From: an uncultured Eubacteriales bacterium
Lineage (GTDB): Bacteria > Bacillota > Clostridia > Christensenellales > CAG-138
Length of the DNA stretch: 37,348 nucleotides
Direction of reading: 5' to 3'
Assembly: GCA_902792295.1 (NCBI GenBank)
Contig: CADAZC010000003.1
Span: forward strand, 1-37,348
The notes below the pieces were generated by a model that ran no database searches, was not told the DNA's origin, and saw only the letters and a program-made list of their open reading frames with translations. Below are positions 12,264-14,836 of this stretch, piece after piece (the stretch's first letter is position 1; every line of letters starts with the position of its first letter). The position numbers were made by a program, and so were the translations under genes.

Positions 12264-12716
12264 ATGTCATTTTGTCCCAAATGCGGCACGCAGTTAAAAC
12301 CGGACGATAAGTTCTGCCCGTCCTGCGGTACCCCTGTCAACGGCACGCCCGCACCCGCAAGAGCGCGGACGGAAGAAGTCTCTGCCGGAGAAAAATGGAT
12401 GAGCGTTCTCGCGTATTGCGGACCCGTCCTGTTTGTTCCGATGTTCGTGAAAAAGGATTCCGAATTCGTCCAGTATCACGTGCGTCAGGGCTTCAATCTG
12501 ATGCTGTTCTACTTCGCGCTGATCTTTGCCCGTTACACGCTCGGCATCATCCCGTATGTCGGCACGTACTTCTTCCGGTATGTCTTCGACATCGGTCTCA
12601 TTGCCGTTTCCGTCTTCTCGATCATCGGCATCGTGCACGCGCTGCAGGGCGCAAAGAAGCCGCTCCCGTGGTTCGGCGACAAGATCGACCTGCTCAAAAC
12701 CCTGTTCAAGAGATAA
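12264..12716 (+). CDS. zinc-ribbon membrane protein (DUF4870-like)
   Basis: A 150-residue protein. Residues 4-24 form a zinc ribbon with two CxxC pairs (CPKCG, then CPSCG). A short Pro/Ala linker is followed by three hydrophobic segments (about 46-61, 78-99 and 105-130). The first helix is followed by VQYHVRQGFNLMLF, a pattern typical of small DUF4870/Tic20-like membrane proteins. The function of this group is unknown. The start at 12264 has AAGGAGG nine bases upstream. It probably shares the HAD gene transcript and ends at a strong terminator 12 bases on. Confidence 0.8.
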   Translation: MSFCPKCGTQLKPDDKFCPSCGTPVNGTPAPARARTEEVSAGEKWMSVLAYCGPVLFVPMFVKKDSEFVQYHVRQGFNLMLFYFALIFARYTLGIIPYVGTYFFRYVFDIGLIAVSVFSIIGIVHALQGAKKPLPWFGDKIDLLKTLFKR

Positions 12717-12727
12717 TCAACCGCACA

Positions 12728-12757
12728 GCGGCAGGCAAAACGCCTGCCGCTTTTTTA
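12728..12757 (+). terminator. intrinsic terminator before the cys operon
   Basis: GCGGCAGGC (12728-12736) pairs perfectly with GCCTGCCGC (12742-12750) around AAAAC and is followed by six T. It insulates the cysteine operon promoter, 15 bases downstream, from upstream transcription. Confidence 0.93.
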
Positions 12758-12771
12758 TTTTCCGAAACCGC

Positions 12772-12800
12772 TTGACAACGCAGCTTCTTTTCCATATACT
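12772..12800 (+). promoter_or_regulatory. cysteine operon promoter, sigma-A type
   Basis: A consensus TTGACA (12772-12777), a 17-base spacer and TATACT (12795-12800). Transcription should begin near 12807, producing a leader of about 200 bases before cysK that contains the leader peptide and the attenuator terminator. No T-box or SAM-riboswitch sequence features were recognised in this leader. Confidence 0.88.
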
Positions 12801-12834
12801 ATATATAATCTTTTTCGAGGAGGAACAAACGGGT

Positions 12835-12903
12835 ATGCAGAGCCGCAATCGCTTCGTGTGTTGCTGTCCCTGTCTTGCTATGCCCGTTTGCGCGCTCGGA
12901 TAG
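12835..12903 (+). CDS. cysteine-rich leader peptide of the cysK-cysE operon
   Basis: A 22-codon ORF with Shine-Dalgarno GAGGAGG at 12817-12823 and ATG at 12835, ending in TAG 12901-12903. Five of its 22 residues are cysteine: residues 9, 10, 11, 13 and 19 (core VCCCPC; codons at 12859-12867, 12871-12873 and 12889-12891). It lies between the promoter and a terminator that precedes the cysteine biosynthesis genes. This is the layout of amino-acid leader peptides that sense the charged tRNA of the pathway product by ribosome stalling. Polycysteine leader ORFs are known before sulfur genes in mycobacteria; here the ORF has a conventional ribosome site. The peptide itself is probably unimportant. 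The regulatory role is inferred from sequence but the coincidence of cysteine codons and cysteine genes is strong. Confidence 0.85.
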
Positions 12904-12920
12904 GGATTTTTTGTTGTTCC

Positions 12921-12956
12921 GCCGGGAAGCGATCGGGCTTCCCGGCTTTTTGTTTT
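12921..12956 (+). terminator. attenuator terminator between leader peptide and cysK
   Basis: A perfect ten-base stem, GCCGGGAAGC (12921-12930) with GCTTCCCGGC (12937-12946), loop GATCGG, followed by TTTTTGTTTT. It begins 17 bases after the leader-peptide stop codon and ends 50 bases before cysK, so it would cut most transcripts short unless prevented. Candidate alternative pairings are the eight bases 12848-12855 (ATCGCTTC) with 12926-12933, and 12830-12837 with 12879-12886 (with wobbles). A convincing classical antiterminator released by stalling on the Cys codons was not found. Confidence 0.92.
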
Positions 12957-13006
12957 GCACACAACACGGAAAAGAAAATCATACTGTTTATACGGAGGAA
13001 CCAACT

Positions 13007-13936
13007 ATGAACGTCTACACATCCGTCGATCAACTGATCGGAAAAACGCCGCTTCTGGAGCTCGGCCGCCTGATGCGTGAGGAAGCGCTTCCCGCGCGGC
13101 TTCTCGCGAAGCTCGAATACCTGAACCCAGCCGGCTCGGTCAAGGACCGCGTCGCAAAGGCAATGCTCGACGACGCGGAACGCCGCGGCGTCCTGAAACC
13201 CGGCTCCGTACTCATCGAGCCGACCTCCGGCAACACCGGCATCGGGCTTGCGGCGGTCGCTGCGGCGCGCGGATATCGCGTGATCATCGTGATGCCCGAA
13301 ACCATGAGCATCGAACGGCGGCGCATGATGCGCGCGTACGGCGCGGAACTGGTGCTGACGAACGGCGCGGACGGCATGAAAGGCGCGATCGCAAAGGCGG
13401 AAGAACTCATAAAGGAGATTCCGGACGCGCTGATCCCGGGACAGTTTACGAATCCCGCGAACCCCGCCGCGCACTATGCGGCGACCGGACCGGAGATCTG
13501 GGCGGACACGGACGGGCAGATCGATCTCTTCGTTGCGGGCGTGGGCACCGGCGGCACGGTCACCGGCGTCGGACGGTATCTCAGGGAGCAAAACCCGAAC
13601 GTCCGCATCGTCGCGGCGGAGCCCGCCTCCTCCCCCGTGCTTTCCGGCGGCAAAGCGGGCGCGCATAAGATCCAGGGCATCGGCGCGGGCTTCGTGCCGG
13701 ACGTGCTCGACACGACGGTCTATGACGAGGTGATCCCCGTTTCCAACGAAGACGCGTTTTTGACGGCGCGGCGCATCGGGCGGCTCGAGGGCGTCGCGGT
13801 CGGCATCTCCTCCGGCGCGGCGGCGCATGCGGCGATCCTGCTTGCAAAGCGGCCGGAGAACCGCGGTAAAACGATCGTCGTCCTGTTCCCCGACGGCGGG
13901 GACCGGTATCTGTCCACGACGCTTTACGAGGATTGA
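13007..13936 (+). CDS. cysK: cysteine synthase (O-acetylserine sulfhydrylase)
   Basis: PLP enzyme that makes L-cysteine from O-acetylserine and sulfide in the cytoplasm. The 309-residue product has the PLP lysine in NPAGSVKDR (Lys46), the substrate loop PTSGNTGIG (72-80), the phosphate-binding glycine loop [10 protein letters not shown] (about 181-190) and [11 protein letters not shown] near the C-terminus. All are diagnostic of CysK/CysM. ATG 13007 is preceded by GGAGGA at a normal distance; the frame is open further upstream but that part lies in the leader. It is the first structural gene after the attenuator and is followed by cysE with two bases between. Confidence 0.96.
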
Positions 13937-13938
13937 AG

Positions 13939-14799
13939 ATGGACCGGCTGCTGTTGAATACCATCGCCGCCCTCAATGCGGAGGACGAACCGCACCGCGA
14001 TCTTTGCGGCTTCCGGAAGAATGCGGAGCGCATGACGGACCTGCTGATCGACGCCATGTTTCCCTGCTATGCCGACGAAGCGATCCCGCGCGAACGGGCG
14101 CTTTCGGAGGCGGCGGCGCTTCTGCGCACCTGTCTTGACGCGCTTTCGGCAGAGCCGGAACGCGCGGACGCGATCGTTTTTGCCCTGTTCGACGCGCTTC
14201 CGGGCGTTCTGCGCCTTTTGAAAACCGACCTTGCCGCCGCGTATGTCGGCGACCCCGCGGCGCGCGGCGCGGATGAAATCATCCTGTGCTATCCGGCGTT
14301 TTTCGCGATCGGCACCTACCGGCTTGCGCACGTGCTGTACCGGAAGAACGTGCCGCTGCTGCCGCGCGTGATGACGGAGTACGCGCACCGCCGCACGGGC
14401 ATCGACATCCACCCCGGCGCGACAATCGGCGAATCGTTCTTCATCGATCACGGCACGGGCGTCGTTATCGGCGAAACCACGACCATCGGCAGCGGCGTCA
14501 AGATCTATCAGCACGTGACGCTCGGCGCAAAGAGCTTCGACACCGACGCGGACGGCGTGCCGGTGAAGGGCGTCAAGCGGCATCCGGACATCGGCGACCG
14601 CGTGGTCATCTATTCCGGCGCTACGATCCTCGGCGGTGAAACGCGCATCGGAAACGACTGCGTCATCGGCGGCAGCGTATGGCTCACGCATTCGGTGGAG
14701 GCGGGCAAGATGGTGCTTTCGCGATCCGCGGTCACGGACAGCACCCTGAAACGCGACATCATGCATCCGTCCTTGCCAGAAGACAGCGCGATGCTCTGA
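13939..14799 (+). CDS. cysE: serine O-acetyltransferase
   Basis: Makes O-acetylserine from serine and acetyl-CoA, the substrate of the preceding CysK. The 286-residue protein has a long helical N-terminal domain and a left-handed beta-helix of hexapeptide repeats from about residue 150. It shows HRRTGIDIHPGATIG (catalytic His158), FFIDHGTGVVIGET (His171), QHVTLGA and RHPDIGD. The long N-terminus and an inserted segment (DTDADGVPVKGVKR, about 211-224) place it in the bacterial group near SrpH/EpsC rather than E. coli CysE. The last residue is Leu; the CysK-docking tail of classical CysE ends in Ile. The ribosome site overlaps the end of cysK, indicating co-translation. Confidence 0.93.
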   Translation: MDRLLLNTIAALNAEDEPHRDLCGFRKNAERMTDLLIDAMFPCYADEAIPRERALSEAAALLRTCLDALSAEPERADAIVFALFDALPGVLRLLKTDLAAAYVGDPAARGADEIILCYPAFFAIGTYRLAHVLYRKNVPLLPRVMTEYAHRRTGIDIHPGATIGESFFIDHGTGVVIGETTTIGSGVKIYQHVTLGAKSFDTDADGVPVKGVKRHPDIGDRVVIYSGATILGGETRIGNDCVIGGSVWLTHSVEAGKMVLSRSAVTDSTLKRDIMHPSLPEDSAML

Positions 14800-14801
14800 A
14801 A

Positions 14802-14836
14802 AAAAGCGTACCGGTTTTCGGTACGCTTTGTTTTTA
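14802..14836. terminator. bidirectional intrinsic terminator
   Basis: AAAGCGTACCG pairs with CGGTACGCTTT across a four-base loop, with T tracts on both strands. It ends the cys operon on the plus strand and the MATE gene (stop 14834-14836) on the minus strand. Confidence 0.9.

Follow-up and report, generated by a model that had tools for sequence, protein, structure and literature searches.

The trp and his operons of Enterobacteria are controlled by ribosome-mediated attenuators of the Yanofsky type. The locus described here lies upstream of cysK in a contig of an uncultured Eubacteriales bacterium (the whole stretch analysed, 37,348 nucleotides, is referred to below as the window). It resembles the trp and his attenuators in combining a leader peptide enriched in the pathway's product, predicted alternative pairings between RNA regions 1:2, 2:3 and 3:4, an intrinsic terminator and an operon for amino-acid synthesis. 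It differs from them in that the amino acid is cysteine and in its anatomy, which is predicted to be unusual: the leader's own Shine–Dalgarno sequence and AUG, its ribosome-binding site and start codon, serve as strand 1, and the presumed sensing codons fall in the loop of the 1:2 pairing.

Cysteine leader reading frames have been published for Actinobacteria (Seliverstov et al., 2005; PMC1262725); for Mycobacterium, that paper reports no conserved hairpin capable of termination and considers Rho. Mycobacterial polycysteine leader sORFs (Canestrari et al., 2020, as cited in PMC9094748 and PMC13236596), termed leaderless, likewise place a run of cysteine codons before cysteine or sulfur genes, whereas the leader described here has a Shine–Dalgarno sequence, a conserved intrinsic terminator and a predicted antiterminator. 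The uORFC-8-2 motif (PMC8632094) also joins an upstream frame with tandem cysteine codons to an intrinsic terminator, but it occurs in another phylum (Rhodobacterales), precedes cysS (cysteinyl-tRNA synthetase) rather than cysK and has two tandem cysteine codons, mostly UGC. Leader-peptide attenuation with a terminator and an antiterminator is already described within Firmicutes, in Bacilli, Eubacteriales and Erysipelotrichales, but for histidine genes (PMC2965389 and PMC9413887). The same gene pair as here, cysK–cysE, is controlled in Clostridium perfringens by a cysteine T-box, which shares premature termination in cysteine excess and Cys-tRNA charging as the input but works through a T-box RNA whose specifier codon is Cys and involves no leader peptide; cysK rises 7- to 120-fold there in cysteine limitation, and the same report states that in certain other clostridia cysK–cysE lacks a T-box and that other mechanisms are possible (PMC2940859).

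Among the titles and abstracts listed by searches of open-access text, no paper on a cysteine leader in Clostridia was found. An earlier sequence-only reading of this DNA knew of no cysteine leader peptide described in clostridia; its novelty has to be put more narrowly, in that what appears to be new is a cysteine leader in Clostridia, those of Actinobacteria and Rhodobacterales and the histidine leaders of Firmicutes being known already.

The leader locus and its codons

The features of the locus are collected in Table 1. The site that the sequence-only reading had called a consensus promoter is near-consensus, with 11 of 12 positions matching, and is the only promoter-like site found between 12300 and 15200 (shuffled sequences gave a mean of 0.7); similar promoters can be seen by eye in upstream regions of the genus. 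We infer a transcription start near 12807, about 28 nt before the leader ORF. The remaining elements of that reading were recovered as described: a strong Shine–Dalgarno sequence (AGGAGG, 12818–12823), a 22-codon frame with cysteine at residues 9, 10, 11, 13 and 19, and, between this frame and cysK, the first gene of the operon, an intrinsic terminator whose stem (12921–12946) has ten pairs, eight of them G–C, and is followed by a T-rich tail. Its two gene assignments fared differently. The product of cysK scores 441.7 bits against TIGR01139, above the curated cut-off of 350.95. The second gene, which begins 2 nt past the cysK stop, is probably, though not certainly, cysE: its best matches are serine O-acetyltransferase models, at scores below the curated cut-offs (152.8 versus 210.65 for TIGR01172 and 144.5 versus 150 for NF041874). 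No tRNA genes were found in the window. A short AATCATA-like motif lies between the terminator and the cysK Shine–Dalgarno sequence (∼12978–12990) and is seen by eye at the corresponding place in several relatives of both genera that carry the leader.

Table 1. Features of the cysK leader locus (window coordinates)
Feature	Position	Strand	Basis
Terminator-like hairpin, 3' of preceding gene	12727–12751	+	Scan
Sigma-70-type promoter, TTGACA-N17-TATACT	12772–12800	+	11 of 12 consensus matches
RNA region 1: leader Shine–Dalgarno sequence, start codon and the codons next to it; predicted partner of region 2	12817–12840	+	Folding, partner swaps
Leader ORF, 22 codons	12835–12903	+	Reading frame preceded by Shine–Dalgarno sequence
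Presumed sensing codons Cys9 TGT, Cys10 TGC, Cys11 TGT, Pro12, Cys13 TGT	12859–12873	+	Sensing role presumed
RNA region 2: end of leader ORF, holds CCC codon; predicted to pair with region 1 or 3	12874–12905	+	Folding, partner swaps
RNA region 3: terminator left arm and loop; antiterminator partner of region 2	12918–12938	+	Folding, partner swaps
Intrinsic terminator: stem and T-rich tail	12921–12956	+	Scan
cysK, cysteine synthase A	13007–13936	+	TIGR01139
cysE-like serine O-acetyltransferase	13939–14799	+	Best family matches, below curated cut-offs
Terminator-like hairpin, operon end	14803–14829	+	Scan

The leader was compared across 28 distinct leaders from 31 loci (L136 was set aside and two duplicates were dropped). 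They are 22–30 codons long, differ in length by whole codons and keep the frame. The first pair of cysteine codons begins at residue 9, 10 or 11, reads TGT TGT in 26 leaders and TGT TGC in the other two, and stands 14 codons from the stop in 22 of the 28. A later proline codon is CCC in every leader (12883–12885 in the window); in 27 leaders the residue after this proline, which lies near the end of the peptide, is Val, Ile or Met, while in L077 the ORF stops there. Apart from the Cys run and the proline, the peptides differ between lineages, as is evident when the window peptide is set against MRKATFSCICCCTVCCDQHPRFVVPM and MQKIFYIGMICCDARCENRVNCVIPI from elsewhere; within the genus several further residues are common. 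The refuting outcome named with the sequence-only reading, a lack of conserved cysteine codons in relatives, did not occur: cysteine codons, frame and terminator are kept while the peptide varies. Such a pattern matches what a leader needs, namely codons for sensing followed by RNA for pairing.

Codon choice in the Cys run is skewed, with 73 TGT to 5 TGC among the 78 codons of the 28 leaders, against 19 TGT to 81 TGC among 100 cysteine codons in 20 genes picked from the window's ORF list. Either slower decoding or freedom from pairing could underlie this bias. A search of NCBIfam gave no family that suits the window peptide. The EAST1 model was matched by two of six relatives' leader peptides at 16.7 and 13.3 bits (cut-off 80), for which cysteine content alone may be sufficient cause.

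Distribution among relatives

Among 23 sampled genomes of the genus, 19 have cysK at E ≤ 1e-60, and in 14 of these a Cys-run leader and terminator lie upstream of it. The remaining five carry cysK without this type of leader: no leader was found upstream of cysK in L013, L015 and L016, and L019 and L020 have a different Cys-containing ORF with a terminator. Leaderless cysK promoters (L015, L016, L022, L027 and others) show, by eye, CCTAT..ATAGG-like boxes near the −10 element, which we take to be possible Rrf2/CymR-type sites.

When a covariance model based on 20 leaders was run on 103 genomes of the family, it gave 27 matches: 15 in the genus (15 of the 23 genomes), ten in a second genus and two that cover a terminator only. 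Nine of the ten second-genus matches comprise both ORF and terminator and have cysK downstream, and in L125 too cysK follows, cut by a contig end; at the tenth, L136, the ORF is present but the contig stops short of the terminator. The genome from which the window comes (79% complete) gave a single strong match, the window copy. Four more distant leaders (L029, L036, L042 and L077), which turned up in a search of named genomes, come from records named Oscillospiraceae or Ruminococcaceae. At every locus whose contig extends far enough, the leader precedes cysK.

The order was sampled with 198 genomes, the window's included (completeness of at least 90% was requested), of which 115 gave 121 cysK matches at E ≤ 1e-100; the upstream regions of 110 of these matches, again including the window's own, were examined. 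Clear leaders were found at L002, L011 and L138–L140, and only genera g1 and g4 clearly carry the leader. When 396 genomes of the order were scanned with the covariance model (E ≤ 1e-3), 12 matched, six of them with real leaders (g1 and g4). The others were set aside: G324 and G266 match in the terminator only, G087 and G125 in the 3' part only, G027 has no leader by eye, and the leader of G176 is rich in methionine. The latter (L114, G176:C14:32536–32675, minus strand) encodes MASLQNRAMMMRMGMCMSMCSAFPCV up to a stop codon, is followed by a strong terminator and adjoins a downstream gene which, from a reading of its protein, appears to specify a MetQ/NlpA-like lipoprotein; it is a candidate methionine leader-peptide attenuator. 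In 391 genomes of the class, model R1 (E ≤ 1e-4) gave five matches, including the window; L247 and L249 are partial, and L246 and L248 were rejected once their sequences had been inspected and showed no such leader. These large scans used stricter filters, at which weak matches are lost. The leader system is real but, in the genomes sampled, restricted to few lineages.

In the window, a scan for sORFs of 10–40 amino acids preceded by a Shine–Dalgarno sequence, with at least three cysteines and a terminator within 110 nt, matched this leader alone on the plus strand and two frames on the minus strand, from 8248 (39 aa) and 4044 (33 aa). A looser scan of cysK upstream regions (at least two cysteines) matched 6 of 110 in the order sample on the sense strand and none of the 110 on the reverse; the six are the five clear leaders, the window's included, and the doubtful L188, with two cysteines only. 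Across 79 other cysK upstream regions it gave 11 matches on the sense strand versus none on the reverse, three of the 11 (L021, L050 and L094) having a leader identical to that of genus genomes. The presence of a Cys-rich leader and a terminator before cysK is not a matter of chance.

No Rfam family scored above its cut-off in the window, and at a relaxed threshold the interval 12700–13060 gave five weak matches, all to unrelated sRNA families. The T-box family (RF00230) had no match in the leader; in the window's genome it has five, three of them above the cut-off, before ileS, valS, hisS, pheS and thrS.

Predicted alternative RNA structures and their joint change

For folding, the ribosome was assumed from general knowledge to occupy 15 nt behind and 12 nt ahead of the first base of the A-site codon, and in the main calculation only RNA ahead of it was folded, as is usually assumed for attenuators. 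With a stall at Cys9, Cys10 or Cys11 and the polymerase at 12938, region 2 (from 12882) pairs with region 3 at −26.1 kcal/mol, compared with a best value of −7.1 to −8.8 kcal/mol for the same stalls when regions 3 and 4 are left unpaired, which serves as a baseline lacking region 3 and not as a strict rival fold; for a stall at Cys13 the antiterminator reaches −20.7 kcal/mol. A ribosome at the stop codon covers region 2, so that only −4.6 kcal/mol is available before the terminator completes, and then only the terminator forms. Calculated at equilibrium on the same RNA, the full terminator is the better structure (−30.6 versus −27.3 kcal/mol for the antiterminator at a Cys9 stall, −28.0 versus −20.7 kcal/mol at Cys13), and it is best in all states if pairing around the ribosome is permitted. 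Because the completed terminator is more stable than the antiterminator, the switch must be kinetic and co-transcriptional. The predicted geometry fits a ribosome stalled at Cys 9–13; Cys19 was rejected as the sensing step, since a ribosome there would cover region 2 and several leaders have no cysteine at that place.

The 2:3 pairing appears in all 30 leaders that were folded, with 10–17 pairs, and in 27 of them the conserved CCC takes part; L009, L131 and L077 folded differently here. Set against dinucleotide-shuffled versions of region 2, its energy ranks among the best 5% in only six of the 30 (two of the six being the same leader). The whole-leader fold of the window recovers the 1:2 pairing unprompted, with the sensing codons in its predicted loop. 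An antiterminator competing with the terminator was absent from the sequence-only model; in the window and in its relatives one is predicted that would exclude the terminator and be free to form only on a stall at the sensing codons.

Pairing partners were also swapped among leaders, with kinship ignored, as in all the swap, shuffle and column counts given here. The mean for native 2:3 duplexes is −19.8; permuted partners give −18.3 ± 0.5, and 27 of 10,000 permutations are as good. For 1:2, with strand 1 sought only from −20 to +12 relative to the start codon, the means are −21.4 versus −18.9 ± 0.6, with 0 of 10,000 as good. Swaps restricted to 19 representatives gave 9 of 10,000 (2:3) and 4 of 10,000 (1:2). 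Leader by leader, the native 1:2 partner beats most swaps in 25 of 28 (525 of 752 single comparisons) and the native 2:3 partner in 17 of 28 (441 of 692 won); the 11 in which it does not are eight of the nine second-genus leaders together with L029, L042 and L077. On average, the joint change of 2:3 is clear in the genus and weak outside it.

Column tests on 14 genus sequences gave 82.7% of cells paired for 2:3, a value reached in one of 500 shuffles, although two of five measures were not above shuffles (251 and 206 of 500). The terminator gave 90.7%, with none of 500 shuffles as high. The 74.8% obtained for 1:2 did not exceed the shuffles (190 of 500), in part through register shifts in L014, L017 and L018; slid registers gave at most 49.2%. 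One 2:3 pair is C–G in seven of the 14 sequences, U–A in six and U–G in one, and the base concerned in the left arm of the terminator has a right-arm partner that changes too. By eye, the base after CCC also mostly changes along with the terminator-loop base opposite it: CCC-G occurs with C (U in L008) and CCC-A with U; in L077 this base is U and has no loop partner.

Proposed mechanism and its alternatives

The comparisons establish the parts of the system, their conservation and a set of predicted, mutually exclusive pairings that change jointly in relatives. Conservation and the predicted antiterminator, with its joint change in the genus, lend support to the attenuator proposed in the sequence-only reading. 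The best explanation, and in our judgement a highly probable one given sequence and folding, is that cysK–cysE would be governed by Yanofsky-type ribosome-mediated transcription attenuation responding to the supply of Cys-tRNA. Transcription would begin near 12807 and a ribosome would load onto the leader ORF. With ample Cys-tRNA the ribosome would reach the stop codon (12901–12903) and cover region 2, the terminator stem at 12921–12946 would form and transcription would end before cysK. With scarce Cys-tRNA it would halt with Cys codon 9, 10, 11 or 13 in the A site, leaving region 2 (12882–12905) free to pair with the terminator's left arm and loop while these are leaving the polymerase; terminator formation would then come too late and cysK–cysE would be transcribed. 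Were no ribosome loaded, region 2 would pair around the start of the leader itself, with its ribosome-binding site and AUG, and the terminator would be left free. Translation of the leader, stalling on it and read-through at low cysteine are all inferred.

The same anatomy could serve a different signal, such as the state of tRNA-Cys (A37 modification, iron–sulfur supply) or translation that is slowed overall. The preference for TGT in the run (73 of 78, against 19 of 100 in window genes) would heighten sensitivity to decoding speed; the downstream genes, cysK and, by best matches, a cysE-like gene, make cysteine, so that cysteine supply is the simplest input, and we regard another signal as unlikely. 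A nascent peptide might instead sense, in the ribosomal tunnel near the proline, cysteine itself or some small molecule related to it, release of region 2 following from the arrest; TnaC, which senses tryptophan, is a precedent for arrest peptides. The late proline of all 28 leaders and the Val, Ile or Met after it (L077 excepted) would suit this, but the invariable CCC and the mostly concerted change of the next base with its loop partner point to RNA pairing, the residues preceding the proline vary, and the spacing of the Cys run is suited to freeing region 2, which makes an arrest peptide quite improbable.

Still smaller is the probability we attach to a working Cys-rich peptide (a metal or redox sensor, or a signal) whose terminator merely ends its own transcript. 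That the peptide is Cys-rich and conserved and has its own promoter and terminator is in keeping with such a role; against it, the peptide varies across lineages except in the Cys run and at the proline, the C-terminal codons in the genus track the sequence of the terminator arm, the window peptide fits no NCBIfam family and EAST1 lies far below its cut-off in relatives, and the leader stands before cysK wherever the contig reaches. Least probable of all in our estimate, and very improbable indeed, is control of the operon by a repressor or a T-box with the leader idle. Several leaderless relatives do have the CCTAT..ATAGG-like promoter box, and the C. perfringens operon has its Cys T-box (PMC2940859), but no such box is visible by eye at the window promoter, nothing in Rfam passes its cut-off in 12700–13060, and in an idle leader the keeping of frame, Cys codons and alternative pairings would be unexpected.

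A second kind of reading frame was noticed near cysK. A tiny ORF with Arg-Cys (CGA-TGT), preceded by a Shine–Dalgarno sequence, starts ∼80–135 nt before the gene in 25 of 79 distinct upstream regions and in 0 of 79 on the reverse strand, by a criterion fixed after the pattern had been noticed (L019, L020, L029, L031, L034, L036, L039, L042, L044–L046, L049, L051, L052, L055, L058, L062–L064, L066, L078, L081, L086, L093 and L098). Examples are MFLLKERC, MRYRFRC and MRNAKTFFRC, each ending at a stop codon. By a looser criterion in the window's order the counts were 10 of 110 versus 4 of 110 on the reverse strand, and the ORF was not seen in the window. In L019, L020, L029, L036 and L042 the leaders are serial, a Cys-containing ORF and terminator being followed by the Arg-Cys ORF and then cysK; L019 and L020 have, by eye, a diverged first peptide in common (M.R..M.MW). 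The Arg-Cys ORF is perhaps a second cysteine sensor.

It is possible, and we put it forward only tentatively, that a gut Clostridia lineage swapped the cysteine T-box for a Cys-leader family of its own, in which strand 1 is the leader's ribosome-binding site and the disfavoured TGT codons tune stalling, while sister lineages stack the Arg-Cys (CGA-TGT) ORF 80–135 nt before cysK as a second sensor, giving control in two steps, first at transcription and afterwards on the main message. If the attenuator operates as proposed, leader-peptide attenuation would play here the part that the T-box has in C. perfringens for the same gene pair and the same signal, an instance of swapped RNA control, and gut Clostridia would possess a cysteine-responsive switch. 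The 28 natural variants would then offer material for testing strand order, codon choice and stall distance in attenuators.
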